From assembly GCF_009498455.1 (NCBI RefSeq), contig NZ_CP045644.1, positions 4,653,001-4,717,000 of the forward strand: DNA of 64,000 nt, in the 5' to 3' direction. The stretch comes from Variovorax paradoxus. GTDB taxonomy: Bacteria > Pseudomonadota > Gammaproteobacteria > Burkholderiales > Burkholderiaceae_C. The notes below the pieces were generated by a model, which ran no database searches, had not been told where the DNA came from, and saw nothing but the letters and a program-made list of their open reading frames with translations. A program made the translations under genes and the position numbers. Numbering within the stretch: the stretch's first letter is position 1; every line of letters starts with the position of its first letter. Shown in pieces: positions 3,920 to 20,044 of this stretch.

Positions 3920-4780
3920 ATGAAAATCTGCCGTTTTGACGATAACCGCCTTGGTCTTGTCGAGGGCGATGTCGTCCGCGATGTGAGCGCAGCGCTGGAC
4001 GTCTTGCCAACGTACAGGTATCCCCTGCCCAGCGTTGATCCATTGATCGCCCATCTGCCGCAAGTGATGGAGCGAATCCGTAGCGTCGCTGCATCCGCTG
4101 AGTCCTTGCCGCTGGCTGGTCGCCGCTTCCTTTCTCCGGTTGCCAATCCTGGAAAGGTCATCGCAGCACCTGTGAACTATCGCAAGCATCTGGAGGAAGC
4201 GCGTGCTGATGCCTCAATCCACTTCGACAGCCAGGTCGCAGAGATTCAGAGGATTGGCCTCTTCCTGAAGGCGAACAGCTCCGTCGTCGGTACCAGTCAC
4301 GGAGTCGAGATCGAGCATCCGGAACGCCGCAACGACCATGAGGCCGAACTGGTGCTTGTCATTGGCAAGCGCGGCCGAAACATTTCTCGCGAGCGTGCCT
4401 ACGAACACATCGCGGCGTATTGCGGTGGGCTCGATATGACCGTGCGAGGGCCGGAGGAGCGCAGCATGCGCAAGTCGATCGACACGTACACAGTGTTGAG
4501 CCCCTGGATCGTGACCGCAGATGAATTGCGCAATCCACAGGAACTCGATTTCTGGCTCACGGTGAACGACGAGCCCCGTCAGCGGGCGAACACCCGAGAT
4601 CTCGTGTTCGACATCCCGACGCTCATCGAGTTGGCATCTTCTTACTACACGCTCGAACCGGGAGACCTGTTCTTCACTGGCACGCCCGATGGTGTCGGCC
4701 GGGTGGTGAGCGGCGACCTGATCCGCGCCGAGTTCGAGGGCATCGGGCGTATGGAAGTCTCCGTGCGGAACGCGCTGTGA
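3920..4780 (+). CDS. Fumarylacetoacetate hydrolase family protein (probable maleylpyruvate/fumarylpyruvate hydrolase)
   Basis: A 286-residue FAH-family protein. The ATG at 3920 gives the usual N-terminus 'MKICRFDDNRLGLVEGD'; the frame stays open upstream but has no family similarity. Metal ligands are visible as E141 and E143 in 'DHEAELVLVIGKRGR' and D172 in 'GGLDMTVRGPE'. 'LEPGDLFFTGTPDGVG' is the conserved C-terminal loop. In gentisate pathways this family cleaves fumarylpyruvate (or maleylpyruvate directly) to pyruvate and fumarate or maleate. It overlaps the downstream gentisate 1,2-dioxygenase by 4 bases (GTGA), which supports that role. No maleylpyruvate isomerase is seen nearby, so direct maleylpyruvate hydrolysis is possible. 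Confidence 0.85.
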   Translation: MKICRFDDNRLGLVEGDVVRDVSAALDVLPTYRYPLPSVDPLIAHLPQVMERIRSVAASAESLPLAGRRFLSPVANPGKVIAAPVNYRKHLEEARADASIHFDSQVAEIQRIGLFLKANSSVVGTSHGVEIEHPERRNDHEAELVLVIGKRGRNISRERAYEHIAAYCGGLDMTVRGPEERSMRKSIDTYTVLSPWIVTADELRNPQELDFWLTVNDEPRQRANTRDLVFDIPTLIELASSYYTLEPGDLFFTGTPDGVGRVVSGDLIRAEFEGIGRMEVSVRNAL

Positions 4781-5835
4781 ATACACCGAACGCTTCTCTC
4801 GCCAAGGTGGGCGGCGAAGGGCAACAACTGCAGCGCCGCGCGTTCTACGACCGCATTGGGGAAGCCCACTGCACGCCACTCTGGGAAGTGCTGCATGGCT
4901 TGGTCACCAAGGAACCCAATACGCCATGCCTGCCCAACCTTTGGCAATGGCAGCAACTCTGGCCTTGGTTGCAGGAGAGCGGTCGACTGATCTCGGCCAA
5001 GGAGGCCGAGCGCCGCGTCCTGGTGCTGGAGAATCCGGGGCTGCGCGGACGAACGCGTATCACGCACAGCCTCTATGCCGGCCTGCAGTTGATCTTGCCG
5101 GGTGAACTCGCCCCTGCGCATCGCCATTCGCAATCGGCGCTGCGCTTCATGATGCACGGCTCCGGCGCCTATACGACAGTCGATGGCGAGCAAGTCACGA
5201 TGAGCGAAGGCGACTTCATCATCACTCCGTCGTGGGCCTTTCACGAACACGGCAACACCACCGATGAGCCGATGGTGTGGCTTGATGGCCTGGATCTTCC
5301 GATCGTCGAGGTGCTCGACGCCCAGTTTCGGGAAGACGGGGCCACCGAGCAGGTTGCGCAACAGCACGCCGGCACCAACCTCGCGCGGTTCGGAAACACG
5401 ATGAAGCCGATCGGATACAAGAGCCGAACGAAGACATCACCGTTGTTTTGGTATCCCTATGCACGCACGCGCGAGGCATTGGAGGTGCTGCGCAACAGCG
5501 AAGATCCGCACCCGAGCTGGGGCCACAAACTTCAGTACACGAATCCCGTCACGGGCGATTGGGCGATTCCGACCATCGGTACGTGCATGCAGTTGCTGCC
5601 GGGCGGTTTCGTTGGCGCCAGCTATGGCTCCACCGATTCCACCGTCTATGCCGTCGTGGAGGGCACTGGCCGGTGCGTCATCGACGGACGGGAACTGGCC
5701 TTCGGACCCAAGGATGTGTTCGTGTGTCCCTCCTGGATGCGCTACCGCTTGGAAGCAGACTCGGACACTGTCCTCTTCAGCTTTTCCGATCGCCCGGTGC
5801 AAGAAGCACTCGACCTCTGGCGAGAGCGGTTCTGA
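4777..5835 (+). CDS. Gentisate 1,2-dioxygenase (bicupin ring-cleavage dioxygenase)
   Basis: A 352-residue bicupin starting at GTG 4777, coupled to the FAH gene. The first cupin holds the Fe(II) site H115, H117 and H156 ('APAHRHSQSALRF', 'PSWAFHEHG'). The stretch 'LRFMMHGSGAYTTVDGEQVTMSEGDFI' and the second cupin 'MQLLPGGFVGASYGSTDSTVYAVVEGTGRCVID' are characteristic of gentisate and 1-hydroxy-2-naphthoate dioxygenases. The expected reaction is O2-dependent cleavage of gentisate to maleylpyruvate. Length is usual for the family. The FAH neighbour, and a NahR-like regulator 1.1 kb downstream, make gentisate the best substrate guess. Salicylate or 1-hydroxy-2-naphthoate are alternatives in the same family. 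Confidence 0.88.
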   Translation: MNTPNASLAKVGGEGQQLQRRAFYDRIGEAHCTPLWEVLHGLVTKEPNTPCLPNLWQWQQLWPWLQESGRLISAKEAERRVLVLENPGLRGRTRITHSLYAGLQLILPGELAPAHRHSQSALRFMMHGSGAYTTVDGEQVTMSEGDFIITPSWAFHEHGNTTDEPMVWLDGLDLPIVEVLDAQFREDGATEQVAQQHAGTNLARFGNTMKPIGYKSRTKTSPLFWYPYARTREALEVLRNSEDPHPSWGHKLQYTNPVTGDWAIPTIGTCMQLLPGGFVGASYGSTDSTVYAVVEGTGRCVIDGRELAFGPKDVFVCPSWMRYRLEADSDTVLFSFSDRPVQEALDLWRERF

Positions 5836-5917
5836 GCTAAAGAAGGCATGGGGCGCTGGCATGGGGCCCTGGGACGTGCAGGAACGTCGAAGGCAATAGT
5901 TCAAAGAGAGACAAAAA

Positions 5918-6879
5918 ATGACTCGGCTTCTCGGAATCCTCCTCGGCGTCCTGGTCATGCTGGCGGCACCTGCCCAAGCAGAGGAGTGGCCCGCCAAGCC
6001 GATCAGGATGATCGTGCCCTTCCCGGCGGGCGGCCCGACGGACTTCATCGCAAGGGAGTCCGCTGAGATCCTTCGCCGGGAATTGAAGCAACCGGTTGTC
6101 GTCGAGAACCGAGCGGGTGGCAACGGTGTGCTCGGCCTGAACGTGTTGGCCAAGGCACCCGCGGACGGCTATACCATTGGCCTCGTGTCGATCACGCTCG
6201 CGATCGCGCCGCACCTGGGACGTCCTTTGATCCATTCAAGGACTTTGCTCCGATTACCAATATTGCCTCCACGACGCCGGTTCTGATCACGCAGCCTGAC
6301 AGTTTGTTCAGAGATCTGCGCGAACTGGCCGGCTACGCCAGAGCGAACCCGGGCAAGGTTGCTTATGGCACACCGGGCGTCGGCACGGTTCCTCACTTGG
6401 CCGCTGAACTGTTCCAGATTGAAGGCCGCGTCCAACTCAATCATGTCCCCTACAAGGGGGCGACGCAGCAGATCCAGGACCTGATCGGCGGCCTCACCCA
6501 AGTCGACTTCCAGAGTTCGCTTGCGGTGGCGCTTCCGCATCTGCAGTCGGGACGCATCAAGGCGATCGCAGTGCTCTCGGAGCAGCGTTCACCCTTGTTG
6601 CCGCAAGTTCCGACGGCCAAGGAGTCGGGCTATCCGACCATGGTGGTGGCGCCCTGGTTTGGCCTCGGCGCCCCGGCCGGTGTCCCAGGCAGCATGGTCG
6701 AACGCATGCACGCCGCGTTGGTGAAGGGGCTGTCCAGCAAAGAAATCGATGCAAAGTTTGTCAGCCTCGGTTTCACGCTGTCGCCTAGCGCGTCGCCGGC
6801 AGACTTCGCAGCCCAGATCAGATCCGAGCACGCGCGATGGGGCAAGATCATCAAGGCAGCGAACGTCAAAAACGAATAG
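5918..6879 (+). pseudogene. Bug/TctC tripartite-transporter solute-binding protein, disrupted by a one-base frameshift
   Basis: The first part (from ATG 5918) has a signal peptide 'MTRLLGILLGVLVMLAAPAQA' and the Bug start 'EWPAKPIRMIVPFPAGGPTDFIAR'. After 'LAIAPHLG' the frame goes wrong at about 6218-6220. Reading from ACG at 6220 in the -1 frame restores 'TSFDPFKDFAPITNIASTTPVLITQ', and the rest of the protein then follows in that frame to 6879 ('NPGKVAYGTPGVGTVPHLAAELF', 'VPYKGATQQIQDLIGG'). A single missing base explains everything; both halves are intact otherwise, so this is a recent mutation or a sequencing error. The family binds carboxylates for TctAB or acts as a sensor. Located just after the dioxygenase, with an RBS-like stretch before 5918. 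Confidence 0.85.
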
Positions 6880-6920
6880 TGACGGCGCGGCGCCGTAACG
6901 CCGCGCGTTGTCCACTGGAA

Positions 6921-7823
6921 CTACCCGCGACCGAAGAGCAAGGCGACCTGTTCGCGCAGCCACCTGTTTCGTGGATCTTGGTCGTAGCGGCGGTGCCAGT
7001 GTTGCTGTATTGGGAACTTGGGGATCTGGTAAGGGGGGGCTACGACCACGACGCGGTCAGTGCCCGCGAACACGCGGCCCACAGGCGTGGGAACTGTCGC
7101 AATCATGTCCGTCGAAGCGACGATGATCGGCAGCGTGAGAAAGTGCGTGCTGCGAAGGCGGACCTTGCGCACGATGTTCCTGCGGTCCAGATAGTTGTCC
7201 ACCAGTTCCTGGCTGCGAGTCGGAGACTCCACGACCACGTGCTCGAGTTCGGAGAAGGCGGCCTTGGTGAGATGGCTTGCCACAGGATGCCCCGCTCGCA
7301 GGATGCAGGAAAAACCATGCAGCATCAATCGCTGCTTCAAGAACGCGCTGCTCCTGAGGTCTGGAAGGTAGCCCAGCGCCAAGTCGACCTGGCCCGCCTC
7401 CATCGCCACTTCGAGTTCTCGTGGCGAATAAGACGCGGCTTGGAAAGTTGCATGCGGAGCAAGGCTTCGAAAGGCCTCCACCAGCGTCGGGAGGAAAACC
7501 ATTTCACCTACGTCTTGCATCGCAAAGCGAAACTCCGTCTTTGCCTCGGCTGCAACAAAGAAAGGGGCTTTCAAGACCTTCTCGTGGATACGGTGCAGCA
7601 TCGCACGGGCTTCATCCGCAAGTTCCAATCCACGGGCTGTGGGCTGCATTCCCCCTGCGGCTCGAACGAACAGTGGGTCGCCAAATTGCTGGCGCAAACG
7701 AACGAGGGCCGAACTCAGCCCCGGCTGGCTCATCTTCAATTTTTGAGCGGCGCGCGTAACACTGCGCGTCTCGTCCAGCGCGGCAATAACGGCCAGCAAA
7801 TTCAGGTCAAAAGTGCCCTTCAT
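6921..7823 (-). CDS. LysR-family transcriptional regulator, NahR/NagR-like
   Basis: A 300-residue LysR protein. The ATG at 7823 gives 'MKGTFDLNLLAVIAALDETRSVTRAAQKLKMSQPGLSSALVRLRQQFGDPLFVRAAGGMQPT', the LysR winged helix with the 'FDLNLL' start typical of the NahR/NodD branch. The effector half 'FRFAMQDVGEMVFLPTLVEAF' and 'VDLALGYLPDLRSSAFLKQRLM' also resembles NahR, the salicylate-responsive activator of naphthalene operons. Longer upstream starts run into the MarR gene and lack similarity. Convergent with the Bug pseudogene and downstream of MarR on the same strand. Probably activates the gentisate operon (3920-5835) or the long operon from 8489 in response to an aromatic acid. Confidence 0.85.
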   Translation of the reverse strand: MKGTFDLNLLAVIAALDETRSVTRAAQKLKMSQPGLSSALVRLRQQFGDPLFVRAAGGMQPTARGLELADEARAMLHRIHEKVLKAPFFVAAEAKTEFRFAMQDVGEMVFLPTLVEAFRSLAPHATFQAASYSPRELEVAMEAGQVDLALGYLPDLRSSAFLKQRLMLHGFSCILRAGHPVASHLTKAAFSELEHVVVESPTRSQELVDNYLDRRNIVRKVRLRSTHFLTLPIIVASTDMIATVPTPVGRVFAGTDRVVVVAPPYQIPKFPIQQHWHRRYDQDPRNRWLREQVALLFGRG

Positions 7824-7890
7824 GCGGGGATCCTGTCGATGGTGGTGAAGACGCCGGCATTGCCGCCCCCAGGGCTTGTGACGCGCTGTG

Positions 7891-8370
7891 CTACGCCTCG
7901 TCGGGAGCCACTTTGGCCAACAGCTCCAGCAACTGCTGGCGTTCCTTCGAGGTGAGGCGCTCCGCGATGTTTTTTTCACATGCGGCGAATGCAGCTTGGT
8001 AGCGCTTGAGATCGATCTGGCCGGATTCGCTCAGATGAAGGGCATATACGCGGCGGTCCGACGTTGCGGCTCGCCGCACAAGACCTCTTCGCTCGAGGTC
8101 GTCCACCACCTTGACGACGCTCGGTCCGGCAATGTTCAGCAGACCGCCGAGCGCAACCTGGCTGATGCCAGCGTTGGCCCCGATGGTCAGGAGTGCGGCA
8201 AAGCGCGCCGGGGAAATTCCCGGGTCGACGAAGCGGGCGAGCGACTCGTCACAACGGACTTGCGCGCGCTTGATCGCAAAGGCCATTGACGCGGCCAACA
8301 CGGGACTTGGTTTGGGCGTCTGTTCGGCGCCAGCCTGGGGCGCACTGGCTGAAAGAGAGGATTTCAACAT
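7891..8370 (-). CDS. MarR-family transcriptional regulator
   Basis: A 159-residue MarR protein with winged-helix signature 'ISPARFAALLTIGANAGISQVALGGLLNIAGPSVVKVVDDLERRGLVRRAATSDRRVYALHLSESGQ'. It has the 'DxRxxxLxLTxxG'-like wing. It is transcribed divergently from the long catabolic operon starting at 8489. The shared 118-base intergenic region holds a promoter and a perfect 15-bp palindrome (8461-8475). MarR repressors such as CouR, FerR and HcaR answer to hydroxycinnamoyl-CoA thioesters in comparable operons, so a CoA-thioester ligand is a reasonable guess. 67 bases separate its stop from the LysR start, so they may be co-transcribed. Confidence 0.88.
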   Translation of the reverse strand: MLKSSLSASAPQAGAEQTPKPSPVLAASMAFAIKRAQVRCDESLARFVDPGISPARFAALLTIGANAGISQVALGGLLNIAGPSVVKVVDDLERRGLVRRAATSDRRVYALHLSESGQIDLKRYQAAFAACEKNIAERLTSKERQQLLELLAKVAPDEA

Positions 8371-8412
8371 CGTGGCGTAAGGGTAAGTACGAGGGGGGAG
8401 TTGGCTTCATTC

Positions 8413-8444
8413 TAGTTGACGACTAATCATGAGCCATCTACATT
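8413..8444 (+). promoter_or_regulatory. Sigma-70-like promoter of the long catabolic operon
   Basis: TTGACG (8416-8421), 17 bases, TACATT (8439-8444): a good sigma-70 match on the plus strand, 45 bases before the thioesterase ATG. The -35 box sits inside a short dyad TAGT-TGACG-ACTA (8413-8425), a possible second operator. Confidence 0.55.
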
Positions 8445-8460
8445 CTGAACATCGTTAATC

Positions 8461-8475
8461 GTTAGCCAGGCTAAC
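8461..8475. promoter_or_regulatory. Perfect palindrome, probable MarR operator
   Basis: GTTAGCC-A-GGCTAAC, a perfect 7+1+7 palindrome. It starts 17 bases after the -10 box and ends 13 bases before the ATG at 8489. This position around or just after the transcription start suits a repressor that blocks transcription. The adjacent divergent MarR gene is the natural candidate protein. Confidence 0.6.
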
Positions 8476-8488
8476 AAGTAAACAAGCT

Positions 8489-8911
8489 ATGTATAGCTAC
8501 ACATATATCCGACGACTTCATTGGAGCGAGTGCGATCCGGGCGGAATCATCTTCTTTCCGAACTACGCACGCTGGATGGTGGAGGGGCTCAACGAGATGT
8601 TCCTGAGGCTCGGCATCGACCCCAACGCAGTCAAGGACGCTAGCACCCGTGGCGGACTGCCGGTCCTCGGGCTGTCCATGAAATTTCTCAGTGCGCCCGC
8701 GCTTCACGAGTCCGTCACGCATCGAATCCTGGTCGAGAAGGTGGGTGGTAAATCCATCGCCTTCCTTCATCAGTTTCTCCGGGGCGACGAGCTCTTGATG
8801 GAGGCGCAGGAGACCCGCGTCTGGGCCGAACACCTGCTTGGCCCCGGAGGCGGCCTCCGCACCCTCCCTGTGCCTGACGACGTCCGGGCGCTGCTCGAAC
8901 GTACCCACTAA
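8489..8911 (+). CDS. Acyl-CoA thioesterase, 4-hydroxybenzoyl-CoA thioesterase (hotdog) family
   Basis: A 140-residue hotdog protein. The motif 'WSECDPGGIIFFPNYARWM' carries the catalytic Asp (D16) seen in the 4-hydroxybenzoyl-CoA thioesterase branch ('DPAGI..(Y/F)PNYxRW'). First gene of the long operon, followed after 18 bases by the BKACE gene. Likely hydrolyses an aromatic or beta-keto acyl-CoA. In L-carnitine catabolism a related thioesterase accompanies BKACE and a 3-hydroxy-acid dehydrogenase, exactly the trio found here. In a gentisyl-CoA route it would release gentisate. Which thioester is used cannot be decided from sequence. Confidence 0.82.
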   Translation: MYSYTYIRRLHWSECDPGGIIFFPNYARWMVEGLNEMFLRLGIDPNAVKDASTRGGLPVLGLSMKFLSAPALHESVTHRILVEKVGGKSIAFLHQFLRGDELLMEAQETRVWAEHLLGPGGGLRTLPVPDDVRALLERTH

Positions 8912-8929
8912 CCCAACCGAGGAAAAGCA

Positions 8930-9808
8930 ATGCGTAACAACAAGATCATCATCACGGTCGCGCCCACCGGTGGCATGGCCAAGAAGTCCCAAAACCCCCA
9001 TCTGCCCACGCAGCCTGACGAGATTGCCGAATCCGTCTACCGCAGCTACAACGCCGGCGCGTCGGTGGTCGCGCTCCATGCGCGGCGCCCGGACGATGAG
9101 GCGACCTGCAGCCCGGAAATCTATGGACGGATCAACAGTCTCATCCGGGAAAAATGCAACATCGTCATCAACAACTCTACCGGCGGCGGCATCGATGGCG
9201 ACATGGTCATCGAGCGTCCCGACGGTCTTTGTGAATCGAACTTCGAGGAGCGGCTCAAGGGTCTCGATGCGGGTGCGGAGATGGCGACCTTCGATTGCTT
9301 CACCGTTGCCGCCCTGCAAGGCAAGCGGGAGATGCTGGTCCCCACGACGCCCAGCCAATGCGATCGCATGGCTGCGCGCTTCATCGAGCGGGGCATCAAG
9401 CCCGAGTGGGAGGTCTTCAGTCCTGCGCACATCCTCCAGGAAGTGACTCGCCTTATTCCCGTGTGTGACAAGCCTCCGTACTTCATCAATATCGTGTTGA
9501 ACGCGGACCGGGGTTTCCAGGGCGCCATGCCGTACACGCCGGAGATCCTGCAGATGATGGTCAAGCTCCTGCCGAAGGACTCGATCTTCAATGTGTCGGC
9601 GATCGGAACGGCGCAGCTACCGGCCACGACCCACGCCATTCTGCTGGGCGGGCACGTGCGTGTGGGCCTGGAAGACAACCTGTACTACAGCAAAGGAAAA
9701 CTGGCCACCAACGAGATGCTGGTGGAGCGCCAGGTCCGGATCGTGCGGGAGCTTGGCTTCGAACCGGCGACGCCCGAAGAAGCGCGGCAGATGATGGGTC
9801 TGGCTTGA
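8930..9808 (+). CDS. BKACE (beta-keto acid cleavage enzyme, DUF849 family)
   Basis: A 292-residue TIM-barrel protein with 'KIIITVAPTGGMAKKSQNPHLPTQPDEIAE' and 'HVRVGLEDNLYYSKGKLATNEMLVERQVRIVRELG', both hallmarks of the BKACE family. Members exchange a beta-keto acid with acetyl-CoA to give acetoacetate and a new acyl-CoA. The Zn site usually has an HxH at the end of strand 2 ('V-H-x-H'). Here the strand reads 'ASVVALHARRPDD', so the second His is H50 but the first is replaced by A48. The Glu of the third ligand region ('GLEDN') is kept. Overlaps the next gene by 4 bases. An altered zinc site could mean changed substrate range or altered metal use. Confidence 0.88.
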   Translation: MRNNKIIITVAPTGGMAKKSQNPHLPTQPDEIAESVYRSYNAGASVVALHARRPDDEATCSPEIYGRINSLIREKCNIVINNSTGGGIDGDMVIERPDGLCESNFEERLKGLDAGAEMATFDCFTVAALQGKREMLVPTTPSQCDRMAARFIERGIKPEWEVFSPAHILQEVTRLIPVCDKPPYFINIVLNADRGFQGAMPYTPEILQMMVKLLPKDSIFNVSAIGTAQLPATTHAILLGGHVRVGLEDNLYYSKGKLATNEMLVERQVRIVRELGFEPATPEEARQMMGLA

Positions 9809-10803
9809 CCGTGGCGCCGGATCTTCTTCCTTTGGAGGCCATCCGGGTCGTCGGCCTGGCCGGGGCCGGCTCGGTCGGAACTGCGTGGGCGGCGCTCTTG
9901 CTGGCACATGGCTACGAGGTCCTCTTCTATGACCCGGATGCGCAGGCTGGCACGCGATTGAAAGATGGAGTCCGGGAGGCCTGGCCGGCGCTGCGGGCGA
10001 TCTATTCGGGATTGGATCCGCTGCCGCCGCTGGAGCGCGTTGGCGTCGCCGCCACCCTCGAGGACCTCGCACGTGGCAGTGACCTTGTGCAGGAAAACGC
10101 AGGCGAGTCGTTGGAAACCAAGCGCAGCGTGTTGAGCACCATCGACGCCGCCCTACCCGCCAACAAGCTGATCCTCTCCAGTAGTGGCGGAGTGCCTCCG
10201 AGCCGGCTGCAGGAGTTTTGCGCGCGCCCCGAGCGGCTGCTGCTAGGGCATCCGTTTCATCCGGCCTACCTGGTTCCGCTGGTGGAAGTGGTGGGAGGCG
10301 AACGCACGCGCGAGGACGCCGTCGACTTGGCGATGCGCTTCTACACCGCCTTGGGCAAGCACCCGATTCGTTTGAAGAAGGAAATGGTCGGTCATCTGAC
10401 CAACCGGCTGCAGTTTGCAGTCTTGCGAGAGGCCATTCATTGCCTCAGCGAGGGCGTGGCTTCTGCGGACGACATCGACGCTTCCATGCGCTGGGGTTTG
10501 GGGCTGCGCTGGGCCATGGTGGGGCCGCTCATGACCTTCAATCTCGCGGGAGGTCCGGGTGGCATCGAGCAGCTCATTGACCGCTTTCGCAGCGATGTGG
10601 AGCAGTGGTGGGGTGCGTTGGGGGCTCCCATGCTCACCGACCAGGTCTGCGAAAAGCTCTTCGCCGGCGTACGCGAGCTTCGCCACGGGATATCCAACGA
10701 CGAATGGGCGCGTTGGCGCGACTCGGCGCTCGTCGAACTCCTGCGATTCCGGTCGGCGCTGCCGTACCCGGCGGATGCAATTCAACCAAGACAGGAGAAC
10801 TGA
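9805..10803 (+). CDS. 3-hydroxyacyl-CoA / L-carnitine-type 3-hydroxy acid dehydrogenase
   Basis: A 332-residue single-polypeptide 3-hydroxyacyl dehydrogenase. Residues about 12-40 are the NAD-binding Rossmann fold ('VVGLAGAGSVGTAWAALLLAHGYEVLFYDPD'). 'ILSSSGGVPPSRLQ' and the catalytic-His segment 'LLGHPFHPAYLVPLVEVVGGE' resemble L-carnitine dehydrogenase and lambda-crystallin-type enzymes. The start is uncertain: TTG at 9805 overlaps the BKACE stop, GTG at 9811 is an alternative. Function: NAD-dependent oxidation of a 3-hydroxy acid or its CoA ester to the 3-keto compound, the substrate of the adjacent BKACE. Confidence 0.82.
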   Translation: MTVAPDLLPLEAIRVVGLAGAGSVGTAWAALLLAHGYEVLFYDPDAQAGTRLKDGVREAWPALRAIYSGLDPLPPLERVGVAATLEDLARGSDLVQENAGESLETKRSVLSTIDAALPANKLILSSSGGVPPSRLQEFCARPERLLLGHPFHPAYLVPLVEVVGGERTREDAVDLAMRFYTALGKHPIRLKKEMVGHLTNRLQFAVLREAIHCLSEGVASADDIDASMRWGLGLRWAMVGPLMTFNLAGGPGGIEQLIDRFRSDVEQWWGALGAPMLTDQVCEKLFAGVRELRHGISNDEWARWRDSALVELLRFRSALPYPADAIQPRQEN

Positions 10804-12525
10804 GTGGACACCGGATACGGCTATCACGCCGAACTCATCCAGCGACACATCGAACTGGTGCCTGGCTATGCAGCAGTCCGCGAAGCGTTGACGTCTGACA
10901 TCGATGTGGGATCCGACACGCTGCGTGAAGTGCTCGGCGCCGCCGCCACGTTCGCCGAAGAACGGCTTGTGCCGATGAACATCGCGGGCGACCGGCAAGG
11001 CTGCCGCCTCGAGGAGGGAAGGGTGCGGATGCCTGATGCCTACAAGCCGGTGTGGGCGGAGCTTGCCGGCAACGGGTGGAACAGTGTCGATCAGCCAACG
11101 CGTTTTGGCGGCCAGGGCTTGCCTGCCTTTGTGAATGCAGGTTGCCGCGAACTGTTCGACCGTGCGTGCATGGCAGTCGGCATGCTGACGGGGCCAACGC
11201 GCGCCGGGACGTTGGTGCTGCTGGAATTCGCTGACGAAACTCTGCAGCAGGAATGGATCCCCAAGTTCGTCTCTGGCCAGTGGTCCGCGACGATCTGCAT
11301 TTCCGAGGCGGATGCAGGCTCGGACGTCGGACGTATCCGTACTCGCGCGGTGCGCGGTGAGGATGGGGCCTGGATGGTGACAGGCGAGAAGATGTGGACC
11401 TCCTTTGGCGACAACGATCTCGTCGAACGAATCGGCCATCTGATGCTGGCGCGCACCCCCGATGCCCCGGCCGGCTCTGCGGGGCTGAGTCTCTTCCTCG
11501 TGCCGAGCAATGTGCGTGACGGTGTCGGGAACTGGGTTTCCAACGGCGTCACACCACGCCGCATCGAGGAGAAGCTGGGGCTTCACGGCTCGCCGACCTG
11601 CGCAATGGGTTTCGAGAATTCACGCGCGTACTTGCTGGGCGAGGTGAATCGAGGATTGCCTCAGATGTTCGTGATGATCCAGAGCATGCGCTTGATGGTG
11701 GCCATCGAAGGCGTGGGCATCTCCTTCGGTGCGGAGCAGACCGCGCTTCGCTACGCCGCGGATCGGCGCCAGGGCGGTGCGTCGTCTCGCCCGCCGGTGA
11801 CCATCAACTCGCACGCGGATATCCAGCGGCAGCTCCTGTCCATGGCGGCACGCGTGGAGGTGCTGCGCGCATTGGTCTACGAGCTTGCAGTGCGGATCGA
11901 CGCGGAAAGGACGGGCGTTGCGACAACCGCCGCCCACGCGAACGTGACCCAGTGGCTACTGCCGATCGTCAAGGCCAGTTGCGCCGAAGCCGCCTTCGAC
12001 GTGCCCAACGCAGCGATTCAGGTCCTGGGCGGTGCCGGCTACACGCAGGAGTGGCCCTGCGAGCAGTGGCTGAGGGACGCACGCATGATGTCGATCGCCG
12101 AGGGGTCCACCGGCATCCAGGCGCTCGACCTGGTGCATCGCCGTCTACTCAAGGACGGTGGTCGGACGCTGAGTCATTTCATCGAGACGGTGTACCGCGA
12201 AGTGAGTAGCGCCGACCGATCGCTGGCCGAACCAGCGGTCAATGTGATCGAGCGCCTGAAAAACGCGGGGGCGACGCTGCTGTCGTGGGCCGGGCAGCCG
12301 CGCGATATCGAAGCTGGCGCAGTTGCGTTTCTCCATTTGTCCATGTTGGCCTGTACAGCGTGGATGGCCGTTCGTATCGCCCATGGAGAGAGCAACGATG
12401 CGATCGGAAGGCGCCTGGCCGCAGCCGGCCGGTTCTGGCTCCACGATCTTGATGCTCGAGCCGCCTTCCACGAAGCCGAGATCCTGCGCGGTGCAGAGCG
12501 CCTTGGCGAATTCCAAAACATTTAG
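10804..12525 (+). CDS. Acyl-CoA dehydrogenase (long form, about 570 residues)
   Basis: A 573-residue flavoprotein starting with GTG 10804, immediately after the previous stop. Core motifs: 'ICISEADAGSDVGRIRTRAV' (flavin/substrate loop), 'MWTSFGDNDL' and 'WLRDARMMSIAEGSTGIQALDL', where the Glu of 'IAEGSTGIQ' is the likely catalytic base as in DmdC-like long acyl-CoA dehydrogenases. A C-terminal extension of about 130 residues ('LSHFIETVYREVS...') is usual for this branch. It would introduce the alpha,beta double bond in an acyl-CoA side chain. Followed after 13 bases by the crotonase. Confidence 0.9.
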   Translation: MDTGYGYHAELIQRHIELVPGYAAVREALTSDIDVGSDTLREVLGAAATFAEERLVPMNIAGDRQGCRLEEGRVRMPDAYKPVWAELAGNGWNSVDQPTRFGGQGLPAFVNAGCRELFDRACMAVGMLTGPTRAGTLVLLEFADETLQQEWIPKFVSGQWSATICISEADAGSDVGRIRTRAVRGEDGAWMVTGEKMWTSFGDNDLVERIGHLMLARTPDAPAGSAGLSLFLVPSNVRDGVGNWVSNGVTPRRIEEKLGLHGSPTCAMGFENSRAYLLGEVNRGLPQMFVMIQSMRLMVAIEGVGISFGAEQTALRYAADRRQGGASSRPPVTINSHADIQRQLLSMAARVEVLRALVYELAVRIDAERTGVATTAAHANVTQWLLPIVKASCAEAAFDVPNAAIQVLGGAGYTQEWPCEQWLRDARMMSIAEGSTGIQALDLVHRRLLKDGGRTLSHFIETVYREVSSADRSLAEPAVNVIERLKNAGATLLSWAGQPRDIEAGAVAFLHLSMLACTAWMAVRIAHGESNDAIGRRLAAAGRFWLHDLDARAAFHEAEILRGAERLGEFQNI

Positions 12526-12538
12526 GTGAAGAACATAC

Positions 12539-13321
12539 ATGTCTGAACGTGACAACCACATTTCCTACGAAGTACGCGATGGCGTTGCCTTGATCGGCAT
12601 CGATCGCGCAGCCAAGCGCAACGCCATGAATCAAGGCATGTTCGAGGCGCTTGGCCGGGCGGCAGCGCGTGCGCAGAACGAAGCGCGCGTCGGCATCATC
12701 CATAGCCACGGCCCCAACTTCTCCGCCGGGCTGGATCTGGCCGAGCATCTGGAGCGTGACCCGCTCGCGTCCATGCACGAATCGCGTGCCCAGCATGCGA
12801 TCCTCAACGTGATCGAACAGGGACGGATCCCGTTCATCGCCGCCCTGAGTGGCGCCACCATCGGGGCCGGCCTGGAGATTGCCGCATCGGCACACCTGCG
12901 CGTCGGCGACGAGACGACCTTCTTTGCACTGCCCGAAGGCAAGCGTGGCATTTTCGTCGGGGGAGGCGGATCGGTGCGGATCTCTCGGCTGATCGGCGTG
13001 GCACGCATGATGGAGATGATGCTGACGGCTCGGACGCTGGCAGCTGCAGAAGGTGCTGCTTGCAACTTGCTGCAGTTCACGACCCCACCGGGCGGCGCGC
13101 TCGAGAAGGCGCTCGAGCTTGCGGCCGGAATCGCGAAGAACTCTGCCGTCTCCAACTTCGCGATCATCAACGGGCTCCCGCGTCTTCGGGATGCTTCGCA
13201 CGACGACGGGCTGTTCTTCGAGTCCGTGCTCGCAGCCATCACCCTGGCCAGCCCCGATGCTCAGGCGGGCCTTCGCGAGTTCCTCGAAAAGCGCGCGGCC
13301 CGACTCGCGCCGTCCAACTGA
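12539..13321 (+). CDS. Enoyl-CoA hydratase/isomerase (crotonase) family protein
   Basis: A 260-residue crotonase. Motifs: 'NAMNQGMFEAL', oxyanion-hole region 'NFSAGLDLAEHL', 'ALSGATIGAGLEIAASAHLRVGDETTFFALPEGKRGIFVGGGGSVRI'. The Glu in 'GLEIAAS' and the Glu in 'ALPEGKRGIF' occupy the two catalytic Glu positions of hydratases. Likely hydrates the enoyl-CoA produced by the acyl-CoA dehydrogenase, to be oxidised by the upstream dehydrogenase. A carbon-carbon bond-cleaving (Ech/feruloyl-CoA type) action is possible. Confidence 0.88.
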   Translation: MSERDNHISYEVRDGVALIGIDRAAKRNAMNQGMFEALGRAAARAQNEARVGIIHSHGPNFSAGLDLAEHLERDPLASMHESRAQHAILNVIEQGRIPFIAALSGATIGAGLEIAASAHLRVGDETTFFALPEGKRGIFVGGGGSVRISRLIGVARMMEMMLTARTLAAAEGAACNLLQFTTPPGGALEKALELAAGIAKNSAVSNFAIINGLPRLRDASHDDGLFFESVLAAITLASPDAQAGLREFLEKRAARLAPSN

Positions 13322-13335
13322 ACAGGAGAGGAGCG

Positions 13336-14475
13336 ATGAAAATCAATATTCTCGGCGGCGGTCCTGCTGGCTTGTATGCGGCTTACCGGATCCGGACGCA
13401 ACTCCCCCATTCCACGGTCACGGTGTTCGAGCAGAACGAGGCGGACACAACCTTCGGATTCGGCGTGGTGTTCTCCGACAAGGCGCTCGAGTTCCTGAGC
13501 GCCGACGATAGTGAAACGCTCGCCCTGATCACTGCGGGCCTTGAGAAGTGGAGCGACATCGAGCTGCGCATCCACGGCGAAAAGATCCGGATCGACGGAA
13601 TCGGATTCACCGCGATCGCTCGCCTTCGCCTGCTAGGCATCCTGCGGCAGAGGGCACTGTCGGTTGGCGCCAACCTTGTCAATGGCCGGGTCGTGCAGTC
13701 GCTTGAAGAACTTGAGGGTGCCGATCTGATCATCGGTTGCGACGGCGCCAACTCGCTGGTGCGCAAGACCCACGAAGCCGAATTCGGCACCGAGATTCGT
13801 CTTCTGGACAACCGCTTTGCCTGGTTCGGCGCCACGCGCGCATTCGACGCACTCACTCAGACATTCAAGACCACGCCGAAAGGCACTTTCAACGCACACC
13901 ACTACCGCTATGCGCCATCGATGAGCACGTTCCTCGTCGAAGCCGATCCGCAGACCTTTGACAGCGTGGGTTTCGCGTCCATGTCGGAGGAACAGTCGCG
14001 GGCCTACTGCGAGGACGTATTCGCCGAGGAACTCGACGGAGCGCACCTGGTGACGAACAAATCGCTGTGGCGCCGCTTCCCCGTGATCAGCAATCGCAAC
14101 TGGTCCGTGGGTAACAAGGTTCTGGTCGGAGATGCACTGCGCACAGCGCACTTTTCGATCGGCTCGGGCACGCGTTTGGCGCTGGAAGACGTTCAGGCTC
14201 TATCGCACGCACTGGTGCAGCATCCGAACAGCGCGCGTGATGCCCTGGCCGAGTTCGAGGCCAAGCGCCGTCCCATCGTCGACAAGCTCGCCGGCGCGGC
14301 CGCGCGCAGCGCAGAGTGGTATGACCATTTTCACGAGCACATGGCTTTGCCCGCGTGGGACTTCGCGATGAGCTATATCAGCCGGTCCGGCCGCATCGAT
14401 TCGGCGCGGCTGCGCGCGATGTCGCCGGCATTCGTGGACGGCTATGAGGCGTACAAAGCCAAGGTGTCTTCATGA
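13336..14475 (+). CDS. FAD-dependent monooxygenase, salicylyl-CoA 5-hydroxylase-like
   Basis: A 379-residue single-component flavin hydroxylase. ATG 13336 follows an AGGAGAGGAG RBS; upstream codons belong to the crotonase region. FAD motifs: 'ILGGGPAGLYAAYRI' at residues 5-19, 'GCDGANSLVRK', and 'VLVGDALRTAHFSIGSGTRLALEDVQAL'. The segment 'DTTFGFGVVFSDKALEFL' is typical of salicylyl-CoA 5-hydroxylase and of the N-terminal half of 2-aminobenzoyl-CoA monooxygenase/reductase, rather than of phenol hydroxylases. Such enzymes hydroxylate the ring of an aroyl-CoA. Linked to an acyl-CoA ligase (overlap of 4 bases) and to a gentisate dioxygenase upstream, the likely product is gentisyl-CoA. Confidence 0.82.
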   Translation: MKINILGGGPAGLYAAYRIRTQLPHSTVTVFEQNEADTTFGFGVVFSDKALEFLSADDSETLALITAGLEKWSDIELRIHGEKIRIDGIGFTAIARLRLLGILRQRALSVGANLVNGRVVQSLEELEGADLIIGCDGANSLVRKTHEAEFGTEIRLLDNRFAWFGATRAFDALTQTFKTTPKGTFNAHHYRYAPSMSTFLVEADPQTFDSVGFASMSEEQSRAYCEDVFAEELDGAHLVTNKSLWRRFPVISNRNWSVGNKVLVGDALRTAHFSIGSGTRLALEDVQALSHALVQHPNSARDALAEFEAKRRPIVDKLAGAAARSAEWYDHFHEHMALPAWDFAMSYISRSGRIDSARLRAMSPAFVDGYEAYKAKVSS

Positions 14476-16055
14476 CGGTATCCCGGAGCAACGTTCCTGC
14501 CACGTTCGGCGGCGTTGTCCTTCAACAGGCCCGCTTCGGCGCCAAGATCGCGTTCGCCGATACGCAGCGATCGGTGACCTTTGCGCAGTTCTCCGAACGG
14601 GTCGACCGGCTCGCCGACTCATTCTTCCGGCTGGGCCTCAAGCCCGGAGCGCGCATCGGCATCCTCAGCCGCAATTGCGTCAGTGCGGTCGAATGTGTCG
14701 CCGTCATGAAGGCGGGCTTCGTTCCGGTTCCGCTGAACTGGCGCCTGACGCCACCCGAATTGGCCTCTTTGCTGCGCGACTGCAAGCCCGATGCGCTTGT
14801 CTGTGACGAGCAGGGCGCCAAGATCGCTGATGAAGAAATCCTTCCGCACGTTGCAATTCCTCATCGCATCGCTTTCGGCTCCTCGCGTGCCGGCTGGTTG
14901 GACTTTGAAGCGTTCCTCGGTGCCGGCGTCGCGGATGCGATCCATCCTGCCGCGGCCGAGGACGCCACGGCCCTGCTGATCTACACGAGCGGCACGACAG
15001 CGGCACCCAAGGCGGCCATGATCAGCCATAAAGGGTTGGTCGCGAACGCCCTTGCATCCGCGTCCGAGGCCATCGGCGTGTCCGAAGATGACACGGTCCT
15101 GTTCGTCATGCCGCTGTTTCACGTCGGCGGGCTGTGCTACTACCTGCTCGCGAGCTACATGGCAGGTGCCAGTTGCGTGCTGCGGCCGATGTTCGAGGTC
15201 AGCGACCTGGTGACCAGCATCGAGCGACTGGGCGTTACCAACGTGCACCTGGTGCCGACGATGATCTCCGACCTGGTCGGTCATCCGGGTGCGGCGCAGG
15301 CCGCCTCGAAGCTCCGGCGCATCGTCTATGCCGGCTCCGCCATGCCCGTGGCGCTGTTGGAGAGAGCGATGGCTGCCTTCGGGAACTGTTCGTTCTCGCA
15401 GTCCTACGGCTCGACGGAAGGCGGCATCATCACGGCCCTCGGCCCAGCCGAGCACCGGATGGCAGCAACGCAGCCGGACAAGGCCCACCTCCTGCGATCG
15501 TGCGGGCAGTTGCTCAGCGGCACAGACCTGCGCATCGTCGATCCCGATGGCGGCGATTGCCGGAACGGGAGTCCGGGTGAAGTGCTCGTCCGCAGCGCTC
15601 GGACCATGTCGGGCTACTGGGCGTCGCCCGAAAAGACCAGGGACACGTTCGTCGGCGAACACCTGCGCACCGGCGATATCGGTTATCGCGACGCCGATGG
15701 CTACCTGTACCTCGTCGACCGGAAGAACGACATGATCGTGACGGGAGGAGAGAACGTTTTTCCGTCCGAGGTCGAACAGGTTCTCTACCGCTCCCCCGAC
15801 GTGGCGGAGGCGGCCGTCTTCGGTGTACCAGATCCGCGCTGGATCGAGAAGGTGGCTGCGGCGGTCGTACTGCGCGAAGGATCGCGAGCGACGCCGGAGT
15901 CGCTCCTTGCCTTCTGCAAGGCTCACCTCGCCCCCTACAAGTGTCCCAAGTCAGTTCTCGTCATGGAGCAACTGCCGAAGACCGGCGTGGGAAAGATCTC
16001 TCGCAAGCTGCTCCAGCAGGCCGTCGTCCACGCGGCGAACGACGCCAAAACCTAG
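14472..16055 (+). CDS. Acyl-CoA ligase (AMP-forming, class I adenylate-forming enzyme)
   Basis: A 527-residue ANL-superfamily ligase. Core motifs: A3 'LIYTSGTTAAPKAAMISH' around residues 170-185, 'SQSYGSTEGG', 'LRTGDIGYRDADGYLYLVDRKNDMIVTGGENVFPSEVEQ', and the catalytic Lys motif 'PKTGVGKISRK'. It activates a carboxylic acid with ATP and CoA. Its ATG overlaps the FAD hydroxylase stop (ATGA). The order fits activation of an aromatic acid such as salicylate or a hydroxyphenylpropanoate before ring hydroxylation. Exact substrate not readable. Confidence 0.9.
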   Translation: MTVSRSNVPATFGGVVLQQARFGAKIAFADTQRSVTFAQFSERVDRLADSFFRLGLKPGARIGILSRNCVSAVECVAVMKAGFVPVPLNWRLTPPELASLLRDCKPDALVCDEQGAKIADEEILPHVAIPHRIAFGSSRAGWLDFEAFLGAGVADAIHPAAAEDATALLIYTSGTTAAPKAAMISHKGLVANALASASEAIGVSEDDTVLFVMPLFHVGGLCYYLLASYMAGASCVLRPMFEVSDLVTSIERLGVTNVHLVPTMISDLVGHPGAAQAASKLRRIVYAGSAMPVALLERAMAAFGNCSFSQSYGSTEGGIITALGPAEHRMAATQPDKAHLLRSCGQLLSGTDLRIVDPDGGDCRNGSPGEVLVRSARTMSGYWASPEKTRDTFVGEHLRTGDIGYRDADGYLYLVDRKNDMIVTGGENVFPSEVEQVLYRSPDVAEAAVFGVPDPRWIEKVAAAVVLREGSRATPESLLAFCKAHLAPYKCPKSVLVMEQLPKTGVGKISRKLLQQAVVHAANDAKT

Positions 16056-16106: not shown

Positions 16107-17240
16107 ATGAAACTGATTCGAACCGTCACGCTGCCCGCGCTTCTCGCCGCGTTATCGCTTCCCGCGCTCGCGGTGAAAGTAGGGGTTATCACTGCGGCAA
16201 CGGGGCCAGGCGCATCCCTGGGCATTCCCTACAAGAACACCTTCGCGGCATTGCCGGCGACGCTGGGTGGCGAACCCGTGAGCTACATCATCCTCGACGA
16301 TGCGACCGATCCCGCGAACGCCGCCCGACTCGCGCGAAAACTCGTCTCCGAGGAGCAGGTGGACCTGATCATCGGCTCAGGCAATGTCCCCACGGCTTCG
16401 GCAATCAGCTTCGTGGCATCGGAGACAAAGACGCCGCAGATCGCACTTTCGCCATTGACCGGCGAGCCGGCGAAGAACCCGTGGGTGTACTCGGTTTCCC
16501 TCCCGACCACGCTGCAGGTGGGGGCCCTGGCAGAGCACTTTGCTGCCGCCGGTGGCAAGCAGATGGGCTACATCGGATTCAGTGACGGCTGGGGCGACCA
16601 GGCCTACGGCGCATTGATGGAGCATGCCGCTAAACGCGGGTTCCAGGTCACCACCAACGAGCGCTTCGCGCGCCTGGACACCAGCGTCAACAGCCAGGTG
16701 CTTAAGGTCATCGGAAGCAAGCCCGAGGCCGTCATGTTGGGCGTATCCGGCACGCCCGGCGCGCTTCCGCATACCGCCCTCGTTGAGCGCGGATTCAAAG
16801 GGAAGATCTATCACACGGCGGCAATCGTGAACCCGGACTTTCTGCGCATCGGGGGCAAGGCAGTTGAAGGCGCCTTGGTTGCCGCAGGTCCGGTGATCGT
16901 GGCTGAGCAGCTGCCCGAAAGCAACCCGGTCAAGAAGCAGGGCCTCGAGTTCACGAAGGCCTACGAGGCCAAGTACGGCGCAGGCTCGCGCAACTCGTTC
17001 GCCGCCTACTCATGGGACGCGTACCTGATCGCAGACCGCGCGGTTGCTGCCGCACGTCGCAAGGCCAAGTCGGGCACGCCGGAGTTCCGTCAGGCGTTGC
17101 GTGACGCGCTGGAGCAGACCTCGGAACTGGCCGGGGCGCAGGGGGTGTACACGATGAGTCCGACGGATCACGCTGGGTCCGACAAGCGTTCGGTGGTGCT
17201 GCTTCGCATCACGAATGGGGCCTGGATGCTCAACAAGTGA
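16107..17240 (+). CDS. ABC transporter periplasmic substrate-binding protein (LivJ-type)
   Basis: A 377-residue protein with a cleavable signal 'MKLIRTVTLPALLAALSLPALA', then 'VKVGVITAATGPGASLGIPYKNTFAALPATLGG', a Leu/Ile/Val-binding (peripla_BP_6) fold. RBS AGGAGA precedes the ATG. It is the binding component of the LivHMGF-type system at 19006-22642. In aromatic clusters this family usually imports aromatic acids rather than amino acids. Confidence 0.88.
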   Translation: MKLIRTVTLPALLAALSLPALAVKVGVITAATGPGASLGIPYKNTFAALPATLGGEPVSYIILDDATDPANAARLARKLVSEEQVDLIIGSGNVPTASAISFVASETKTPQIALSPLTGEPAKNPWVYSVSLPTTLQVGALAEHFAAAGGKQMGYIGFSDGWGDQAYGALMEHAAKRGFQVTTNERFARLDTSVNSQVLKVIGSKPEAVMLGVSGTPGALPHTALVERGFKGKIYHTAAIVNPDFLRIGGKAVEGALVAAGPVIVAEQLPESNPVKKQGLEFTKAYEAKYGAGSRNSFAAYSWDAYLIADRAVAAARRKAKSGTPEFRQALRDALEQTSELAGAQGVYTMSPTDHAGSDKRSVVLLRITNGAWMLNK

Positions 17241-17314: not shown

Positions 17315-18430
17315 ATGAGTGAGAAAACCATGCGTGCGGCACGGCTGCATACGATCGGCGGCCGCTTCCAGATTGACCAGGTGCCCATTCCCGAAGTCCG
17401 CGAGCTGGACGTGCTTGTCGAGGTGAAGGCCGCGGGTGTCGTGCCGAATCTGCGCAACGTCGTGACGCACTTTCCCACATGGTTCCCGTACCTGCCGCTC
17501 CCGAAGCTGCCTGCGATCTACGGCCTCGACTCTGCTGGCGTGGTCAAGGCCGTGGGAAGTCGGGTCCGAACCGGCGTGAAGCCCGGCGATCGTGTCTACG
17601 TCAACCCTGGCCTGTCCTGTGGGACCTGTCCGGCCTGCAGGAATGATGACCCAGTCAATTGCACGTCCTATACCTTCATGGGCTACTTCGGATTCGGACC
17701 GGGCTCACAGAAGATCTACGAGGACTACCCGTATGGTGGGTTCGGTGAGTACCTGACGGCACCCGCATCGAGCTTGGTGACGCTGCCGCAGAGCGTGAGC
17801 TTCGAAGAGGCAGCACGCTTCGGTTACATCGGCACGGGGTACTCGGGTCTTCGCAAGGCGCGCCTGCAAGCTGGCCAGACCGTGCTGGTCGATGGCGGCA
17901 CCGGCACGCTGGGCGTCGGCACGGTGATCTCGGCGCTGGCCATGGGTGCCTCGAAGGTGTTTGCGACCGGACGAAACAAGCTGCTGCTGGAGAAGCTGAA
18001 GGCGATTGATCCGAAGCGCATTCATACCATCGCACTCGGCGACGGACCGGCCTCGGCCGCCGTGATGAAGGCGACGGACGATCTGGGTGTCGACGTGGTG
18101 ATGCAGGCGCTCGGTCCTAGCGCGCCCGCAAGTGCGGTCGTTGACTCCATTCATGCGCTTAAGCGCGGCGGCGTAATGGTCAACATCGGCGGGGTTTCCG
18201 AAACCCTGCCGATCGATCCTATTCCGATGATGACTCAGCAGAAGAGTTTCGTTGGATCGTGTTGGTTCACGACGAAAGAGGGTCAGACCATGGCCGATCT
18301 TGCGGACGCGGGTTTGCTGAACCTGGGTGTCTTCGAGCACGAGCGCTTCGGTCTCGACTCCGTCAATGAAGCACTGGACGCGGTCGAGCAGCGAACGGGC
18401 GGCTTTTCCAACGTGGTTGTTGTCCGGTGA
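17315..18430 (+). CDS. MDR-family zinc-type alcohol dehydrogenase-like oxidoreductase
   Basis: A 371-residue medium-chain dehydrogenase/reductase. ATG 17315 with AGGAG at 17304-17308; the longer frame from 17237 lacks similarity. GroES-like N-terminal and Rossmann C-terminal halves are present ('GQTVLVDGGTGTLGVGTVISALAMGASKVFATGRN'). The structural-zinc lobe is intact: four Cys with spacing 3, 3 and 8 in 'CGTCPACRNDDPVNC'. The usual catalytic-zinc ligands (Cys of 'GxCGxD' and the His-Glu of 'GHE') are replaced ('GVVPNLRN', 'IYGLDSAG'). It therefore probably reduces or oxidises its substrate without a catalytic zinc. Position between the ABC binding protein and cupin gives no direct substrate hint. 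Confidence 0.8.
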   Translation: MSEKTMRAARLHTIGGRFQIDQVPIPEVRELDVLVEVKAAGVVPNLRNVVTHFPTWFPYLPLPKLPAIYGLDSAGVVKAVGSRVRTGVKPGDRVYVNPGLSCGTCPACRNDDPVNCTSYTFMGYFGFGPGSQKIYEDYPYGGFGEYLTAPASSLVTLPQSVSFEEAARFGYIGTGYSGLRKARLQAGQTVLVDGGTGTLGVGTVISALAMGASKVFATGRNKLLLEKLKAIDPKRIHTIALGDGPASAAVMKATDDLGVDVVMQALGPSAPASAVVDSIHALKRGGVMVNIGGVSETLPIDPIPMMTQQKSFVGSCWFTTKEGQTMADLADAGLLNLGVFEHERFGLDSVNEALDAVEQRTGGFSNVVVVR

Positions 18431-18450
18431 GGACGGCCGGGGAGAAGATC

Positions 18451-20043: not shown

Positions 20044-20044
20044 G

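Follow-up and report, generated by a model that had tools for sequence, protein, structure and literature searches.

How might a gene cluster that joins side-chain oxidation to gentisate cleavage come by its aroyl-coenzyme A (aroyl-CoA) intermediate, when its genome encodes no close relative of the ligase found in related gentisate clusters and no thiolase domain occurs in the 17 proteins covered by a family scan of its locus? This question is raised by a cluster in Variovorax paradoxus, which we examined in a window of 64,000 nucleotides (bases 4653001-4717000 of a 7.29 Mb single-contig genome; coordinates below are those of the window). Its main operon, on the forward strand (8489-22642), encodes in order a 4HBT thioesterase (THIO), a beta-keto acid cleavage enzyme (BKACE), a dehydrogenase of the 3-hydroxyacid or 3-hydroxyacyl-CoA type (HAD), an acyl-CoA dehydrogenase (ACAD), an enoyl-CoA hydratase (ECH), a FAD monooxygenase (FADH), an acyl-CoA ligase (LIG), a solute-binding protein (LivK), an MDR-family dehydrogenase/reductase (ADH), a small cupin and the ABC transporter components LivH, LivMG and LivF. 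A separate gene pair upstream, FAH (3920) and GDO (4777), codes for an FAH-family hydrolase and a gentisate 1,2-dioxygenase, and a frameshifted TctC gene, a LysR gene and a divergent MarR gene lie between both operons. The scan covered 3920-21886, with LivF (21890-22642) outside it, and it bears out each of the genes named by a first-pass annotation (FAH, GDO, LysR, MarR, thioesterase, HAD, ACAD, ECH, FAD hydroxylase and ligase), as well as the location of both regulators between the operons. The beta-oxidation set of that annotation stands for HAD, ACAD and ECH, but the gene at 8930-9808, which had been folded into it, encodes the BKACE; likewise, the genes placed within 12 kb are there, but the operon runs on through LivK to LivF.

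A proposed route and its two modules

Based on the gene identities, the synteny, the ancestry of the modules and the absence of a close ligase relative, we infer the individual reactions, the position of the ring hydroxyl, the order of steps around HAD and the regulator ligand. We think it reasonably probable that the cluster serves to take up an ortho-hydroxyphenylpropanoate, namely 3-(2-hydroxyphenyl)propanoate (melilotate) or perhaps o-coumarate, and to cleave its ring. The CouP-like ABC transporter would import the acid, LIG would form its acyl-CoA, and ACAD and ECH would convert this to the 3-hydroxy-3-arylpropanoyl-CoA; with CoA removed before or after HAD oxidizes the 3-hydroxyl group, free 2-hydroxybenzoylacetate would result. 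BKACE would then convert 2-hydroxybenzoylacetate and acetyl-CoA to salicylyl-CoA and acetoacetate, FADH would hydroxylate salicylyl-CoA to gentisyl-CoA, THIO would release gentisate, and GDO and FAH would cleave its ring. The BKACE step would thus change the chemistry from thiolysis to the breaking of a C-C bond in a free beta-keto acid and, since BKACE would replace the thiolase and yield an aroyl-CoA, no salicylate-CoA ligase would be needed. The nearest PDB structure to HAD is lambda-crystallin, whose kin act on free acids, and CoA hydrolysis may for this reason take place at the hydroxyacyl stage.

A parallel cluster was recovered by tblastn searches against plasmid records, in which a 938 kb plasmid of the legume-root isolate V. 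boronicumulans EBFNA2 carries a BKACE (85% identical) and a FADH (71%) about 4 kb apart. The annotated order of this locus (L051) is MarR (reverse strand), GDO, FAH, THIO, BKACE, HAD, ACAD, ECH, FADH, LIG, LivK, ADH, cupin, LivH, LivMG, LivF, such that the two operons of the window form one operon there, and the stretch from THIO to LivF, 13 genes long, has the same order and strand in both species (identities in the table below). As 13 genes have retained both order and strand, the cluster is not a chance assembly, and GDO exceeds the gentisate equivalog cut-off in both. LysR has no match in this cluster at E 1e-6; it is rejected as a member of the conserved core and probably lies outside it.

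The trees of FADH, LIG and HAD, together with the identities by which THIO and BKACE were compared, indicate that the cluster is a composite of two modules, THIO-FADH and BKACE-HAD-LIG. FADH is a protein of 379 residues without a reductase domain, and its 374 bits against PRK08255, over model positions 1-385 of 768, fall far below the cut-off of 1078 that marks the two-domain family. In a maximum-likelihood tree (matches scoring 150 bits or more with coverage of 80% or above, trimmed to 390 residues; 56 rows, 50 of them different, with L001, L002, L041, L083 and L084 left out) it belongs to a clade of eight rows (window, L032, L033, L034, L051, L052, L093, L094; support 100/100). The sister group of this clade holds the hydroxylase of L080, about 50% identical to FADH, which is CehH by its record's annotation and is encoded beside CehG; the joint clade of 13 rows has a support of 98/91. 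FADH stands apart from an outer group of 13 rows, 12 of which are long and are taken as two-domain by length (more than about 600 residues); seven other long rows are found elsewhere in the tree, one of them (L038) inside the CehH group.

The THIO protein is 60-75% identical to those of L032, L033, L034, L052, L093 and L094. Five of these clusters read ligase2-THIO-FADH-GDO-FAH, where ligase2 denotes a second type of ligase: L033 and L034 (Cupriavidus, with an extra gene between FADH and GDO that by eye resembles an MFS transporter), L052 (V. paradoxus), and L093 and L094 (both from the genus of the window). L032, with THIO, FADH and a partial GDO match only and no ligase match, is not counted among them. 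No BKACE occurs in these five clusters, which are presumably salicylate clusters, and none was seen at the other FADH loci (L035-L040, L063-L072 and L096-L098), some but not all of which have a ligase. The ligase2 proteins are 62-93% alike among the five clusters and 26-28% identical to CehG, they form a clade of their own (100/100) apart from LIG, and their best match in the genome of the window is 31% identical. That this genome has no close ligase2 relative and yet has a BKACE, whose proposed product is an aroyl-CoA, is our main argument for one joined pathway. A plain salicylate pathway is rejected on the same absence and on the placement of LIG in another clade. The Sdg system of Streptomyces WA46 and the Ceh system of a carbaryl-degrading Rhizobium are reportedly salicylate-CoA/gentisate pathways, and with these and the cehH-cehG locus of Salipiger abyssi the cluster shares a one-domain aroyl-CoA hydroxylase, a thioesterase and a gentisate dioxygenase. 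It differs from them in the absence of a close relative of the salicylate-CoA ligase and in the proposed origin of salicylyl-CoA by BKACE cleavage of a side chain. The FAD enzyme hence does not fall among unrelated hydroxylases, and the two operons do occur together elsewhere, as one operon in V. boronicumulans; as these were the two outcomes that the first-pass annotation had set against its combined scheme of side-chain oxidation, aroyl-CoA hydroxylation and gentisate cleavage, that scheme is retained as the best inference.

The side-chain module has a different set of relatives. LIG and HAD of the window pair with those of L051 and next with those of L061 and of Massilia putida L074 (LIG 99/99, HAD 95/99), and only this close grouping is used here because the LIG tree carries a long-branch warning. 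L061 is a sister cluster in the same genome, 38 kb upstream and spanning about 19-39 kb upstream of the window start, which encodes a MarR regulator, a Liv transporter, a VanA_C Rieske oxygenase, a reductase, BKACE, HAD, ECH and LIG, and further a MenI-type thioesterase, a metallo-beta-lactamase-fold protein, ADH, cupin and ACAD. Its BKACE, HAD, LIG, ADH and cupin are 66, 47, 44, 67 and 62% identical to those of the window, and it has the look of a route for a different phenylpropanoid, perhaps a methoxylated one. L062 holds a third BKACE from this subfamily. The M. putida locus (14001-26540 of L074, on a plasmid) comprises genes for BKACE, a GDO-like cupin, FAH, HAD, ECH, LIG, ACAD, ETF and a TesB-like thioesterase. 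Its cupin scores 269 bits against a gentisate dioxygenase cut-off of 442 and FADH has no match in the cluster, which by its gene content is a parallel side-chain-plus-ring-cleavage cluster.

The transporter bears on the likely substrate. Seven PDB sequences match LivK with E values of 1e-60 or better; 7ylt is the nearest, and CouP (4jb0), the binding protein of the p-coumarate transporter CouPSTU of Rhodopseudomonas palustris, scores E 1e-91. As described (PMC3610893), CouP contacts the carboxylate of ferulate through Arg197, Ser222 and Thr102 and its 4-hydroxyl through His309 and Gln305, and does not bind 4-hydroxybenzoate for want of a three-carbon chain. LivK belongs to the same binding protein family and keeps the Arg and Ser, whereas both residues facing the 4-hydroxyl are replaced (Q305 and H309 by S297 and Y301), as is Thr102. 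The retained Arg and Ser and the replaced 4-hydroxyl contacts suit a C6-C3 acid without a 4-hydroxyl group, a fit rather than a proof, and LivK, LIG, FADH and GDO together point to an ortho-hydroxyphenylpropanoate as the candidate substrate.

The BKACE subfamily, its metal site and its neighbors

The protein at 8930-9808 agrees with the PF05853 family profile and its TIM-barrel fold, but departs from the canonical metal site: the positions of the zinc ligands His, His and Glu are occupied by A48, H50 and E248. In an alignment of 18 subfamily sequences (that of the window and 17 others at 60-85% identity) with one canonical outlier, all 18 subfamily rows carry Ala in place of the first zinc His, which is present in all five of the PDB alignments listed, and the subfamily has Arg at position 53. 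Hence membership of the fold family holds while the canonical metal site does not. Zinc is described as catalytically requisite in BsfD, for which the ligands are given (PMC12871164), and how a subfamily lacking one of the three zinc ligands might work is a question for enzymology. Activities on benzoylacetate and 4-hydroxybenzoylacetate have been reported within the BKACE family (PMC4922564); the enzyme of the window is like these in fold, family and proposed aroylacetate substrate, and unlike them in lying in a beta-oxidation operon and in its Ala and Arg53.

The records label this subfamily "3-keto-5-aminohexanoate cleavage protein", for which the present proposal offers a testable role. 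Some BKACE neighborhoods, as judged by gene content, point to aroylacetate substrates. On plasmids of Sphingobium yanoikuyae and Sphingomonas bisphenolicum the BKACE gene follows a thioesterase gene, with pobA nearby, and genes for a Tm-1-like ATP-binding protein, biotin carboxylase parts and a HAD hydrolase-like protein lie 3' of it. At L055 (9627-14921, genome G180) hydantoinase A and B genes, which we take to be of the acetophenone/acetone carboxylase family, directly follow BKACE, such that the pair is possibly an acetophenone-type carboxylase with its cleavage enzyme. The genes on the Sphingobium and Sphingomonas plasmids resemble a set that, according to PMC9618137, converts hydroxyacetophenones to hydroxyphenyl-beta-ketopropionates by means of a kinase, a biotin carboxylase and a phosphatase, although the kinase described there differs in type from the Tm-1-like protein. 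By the same account, strain SYK-6 appears to convert the hydroxyphenyl-beta-ketopropionates to hydroxybenzoates via VceA and VceB. As described (PMC11837543, PMC9618137), VceA/VceB of Sphingobium SYK-6 resemble our proposal in taking an aroylacetate to a CoA thioester, followed by a thioesterase, whereas in the window the aroyl-CoA would be hydroxylated before hydrolysis. A relative of the HAD dehydrogenase is within reach at nine of the 19 other BKACE loci longer than 7 kb.

Against this background we put forward, as a more tentative and somewhat doubtful extension, that the cluster represents a thiolase-free aromatic beta-oxidation, in which ortho-hydroxybenzoylacetate is cleaved to salicylyl-CoA by BKACEs of a subfamily whose metal site has been rebuilt, and the product is hydroxylated on CoA without free salicylate ever being formed, and that BKACE with its own dehydrogenase and ligase constitutes a general phenylpropanoid/aryl-ketone module. 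If so, two chemistries usually described apart, the hydroxylation of salicylate at the CoA level and the cleavage of aroylacetates by BKACE, would be joined in one route for a plant phenolic acid, which would explain how the cluster manages without a salicylate-CoA ligase and would bypass free salicylate, a plant defense signal. Among the literature matches listed, judged by titles and the starts of abstracts, none links a BKACE to the oxidation of phenylpropanoid side chains on a route to gentisate.

The control region and alternative readings

The 118 bp between MarR and THIO contain a predicted promoter followed by a palindrome (see the table). In the corresponding gap of L051, TTGACC-N17-TACATT is followed by GTTAGCTAAGCTAAC at the same spacing, and L061 has TTGACG-N17-TACATT (both by eye), while a script detected no palindrome in the MarR-operon gap of L061. 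The exact palindrome pattern has 8461-8475 as its sole exact match in the window, which is not independent evidence because the pattern was built from the sites of the window and L051; with up to three mismatches there are three matches in the window against 1.60 expected, two of them being one site on both strands, which leaves the exact site as the only one of note. The palindrome is likely a repressor site just past the -10 box, through which MarR, put by the first-pass annotation in a type that often senses CoA thioesters, probably represses the main operon.

Could the ring hydroxyl be placed otherwise? Flavin monooxygenases of the FADH kind hydroxylate para to a hydroxyl group, such that both isomers would give gentisyl-CoA, and a meta-hydroxyphenylpropanoate cleaved by BKACE to 3-hydroxybenzoyl-CoA would serve as well as the ortho compound. 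The distance of ligase2 from CehG leaves room for this reading, as the acid activated by ligase2 in the clusters of Cupriavidus and Variovorax need not be salicylate; we nevertheless regard it as unlikely, given that the only named hydroxylase in the neighboring branch is the salicylyl-CoA hydroxylase CehH. It is still less probable, in our view, that a beta-keto acid enters directly, for instance 2-hydroxybenzoylacetate formed when the lactone ring of 4-hydroxycoumarin opens or derived from a chromone, with ACAD, ECH and LIG as a side branch. Such an entry would accord with the requirement of BKACE for a free beta-keto acid, with the BKACEs of L053, L081 and L055, which adjoin aryl-ketone-carboxylase-like genes and not beta-oxidation genes, and with the likeness of HAD to lambda-crystallin, whose kin act on free acids. 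However, LIG, ACAD and ECH are kept in the V. boronicumulans operon and recur as a module at both L061 and L074, and the CouP that LivK resembles needs a three-carbon carboxylate chain.

Nor do we give much credence to two unrelated pathways that happen to adjoin, a BKACE beta-oxidation of a non-aromatic acid and a salicylate-gentisate pathway; although the modules are found separately in other genomes, their genes are interleaved (THIO-BKACE-HAD-ACAD-ECH-FADH-LIG) on each of two replicons, where they share a single predicted promoter and operator and are accompanied by a CouP-like transporter, and the genome of the window has no close ligase2 relative. A carnitine pathway is rejected, as HAD scores far below the L-carnitine dehydrogenase cut-offs of NCBIfam (PRK07066, 245 of 414 bits; PRK07531, 202 of 592). 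Carnitine degradation likewise employs a BKACE next to a carnitine dehydrogenase; unlike that system, the window has aromatic neighbors, a ligase, ACAD, ECH and a FAD hydroxylase. Very improbable is an amino analogue, in which 2-aminobenzoylacetate would be cleaved to anthraniloyl-CoA and hydroxylated to 5-hydroxyanthraniloyl-CoA. The hydroxylase family includes the 2-aminobenzoyl-CoA monooxygenase domain, in keeping with the PRK08255 match, but FADH does not group with the main set of long two-domain rows, and the cut-off that GDO exceeds is that of the gentisate equivalog, not that for aminosalicylate dioxygenase (254 of 650 bits in the NCBIfam scan). FADH as a two-domain 2-aminobenzoyl-CoA enzyme in the strict sense is rejected on its tree and the absence of the reductase half.

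Several observations weigh against the ortho-hydroxyphenylpropanoate route that we prefer. As the subfamily is without one zinc-ligand His, BKACE activity cannot be assumed; no enzyme of the operon is assigned to CoA removal before BKACE, the sole thioesterase being of the THIO-FADH type; and ADH and the cupin, though kept in the window, L051 and L061, are parts without an explained role. Aryl-ketone-carboxylase-like neighbors occur at only three of the 19 other BKACE loci (L053, L081, L055), and the BKACEs of L075, L077 and L079 lie amid transposons or unrelated genes, with no informative aromatic context adjoining. In the FADH tree the window joins clusters that lack BKACE first and L051 only after that (93/87, not starred), we infer rather than observe that ligase2 acts on salicylate, and Thr102 of CouP is Val in LivK. 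GDO and FAH are only 47-48% identical to the L051 pair and stand in reversed order, a sign that the gentisate genes entered each cluster independently, and the GDO-FAH pair of the window may thus be a separate recruitment. The pattern search of the window found no MarR palindrome upstream of FAH-GDO, and the palindrome is accordingly rejected as an operator common to both operons. Finally, the composite is rare, with FADH in two of the 20 BKACE-bearing loci longer than 7 kb (the window counted in). BKACE has a match at E 1e-60 in seven of 399 genomes of the order. No further composite cluster came from the family sample (only the genome itself among 399, at E 1e-128), the genus sample (the genome itself and G859 among 100, at E 1e-125) or the phylum sample (four of 398, at E 1e-90). 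The cluster looks accessory, and in V. boronicumulans it is plasmid-borne.

Gene inventory and flanking genes

Table 1. Features of the locus, with identity (%) of the products to their V. boronicumulans L051 counterparts
Feature	Position	Strand	Identity to L051	Basis
FAH-family hydrolase, probable maleylpyruvate/fumarylpyruvate hydrolase (FAH)	3920..4780	+	47	PF01557, 177 bits
Gentisate 1,2-dioxygenase (GDO)	4777..5835	+	48	TIGR02272, 487.5 bits; equivalog cut-off 442.1
LysR-family regulator, start codon inferred	6921..7826	-		PF00126, PF03466
MarR-family regulator	7891..8370	-	53	PF12802/PF01047; 60% to L061
Predicted promoter TTGACG-N17-TACATT	8416-8444	+		hexamers and spacing read by eye
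Palindrome GTTAGCCAGGCTAAC, putative MarR operator	8461-8475	+		near-identical palindrome in L051
4HBT thioesterase, probable gentisyl-CoA thioesterase (THIO)	8489..8911	+	68	PF13279/PF03061; nearest PDB chain named 4-hydroxybenzoyl-CoA thioesterase
Beta-keto acid cleavage enzyme (BKACE)	8930..9808	+	85	PF05853, 260 bits
Lambda-crystallin/carnitine-dehydrogenase-like 3-hydroxyacid (or 3-hydroxyacyl-CoA) dehydrogenase (HAD)	9805..10803	+	66	PF02737/PF00725; nearest PDB lambda-crystallin
Acyl-CoA dehydrogenase (ACAD)	10804..12525	+	63	PF00441/PF02770/PF02771
Enoyl-CoA hydratase (ECH)	12539..13321	+	71	PF00378; PRK08150, 326 bits, cut-off 232
Single-domain FAD monooxygenase, proposed salicylyl-CoA 5-hydroxylase (FADH)	13336..14475	+	71	best NCBIfam PRK08255, 374 bits
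AMP-forming acyl-CoA ligase, side-chain module (LIG)	14472..16055	+	58	PF00501; nearest PDB feruloyl-CoA synthetase 8wev
CouP-like solute-binding protein (LivK)	16107..17240	+	79	PF13458
MDR-family dehydrogenase/reductase (ADH)	17315..18430	+	72	PF08240/PF00107; 67% to L061
Small cupin protein	18451..18990	+	64	PF07883; 62% to L061
ABC permease LivH	19006..20043	+	62	PF02653
ABC permease-ATPase fusion LivM-LivG (LivMG)	20021..21886	+	67	PF02653 + PF00005
ABC ATPase LivF	21890..22642	+	67	L051 counterpart annotated as ABC ATP-binding protein

A few of these assignments call for comment. FAH lies under every NCBIfam cut-off in the NCBIfam scan. The LysR regulator had been called NahR-like, a label that the family scan does not support: its best model is BsrA, at only 198 of 480 bits. 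The ECH sequence has two Glu residues of the catalytic type. ADH retains the Cys motif for structural zinc, whereas the Cys and His normally present at the catalytic zinc are missing, and it may act by reducing an activated double bond. The TctC/Bug solute-binding protein gene (5917-6879) is frameshifted, with its N-terminal and C-terminal parts in different frames.

Outside the cluster, the window has at 1877-3472 a gene for an IclR-type regulator fused to an SMP-30/gluconolactonase-like domain. Downstream, consecutive DUF1302, DUF1329, YCF48-like and MMPL-family genes occupy 23256-29884, and an IS66-family transposase gene lies at 30760-32382, about 8 kb from the cluster.

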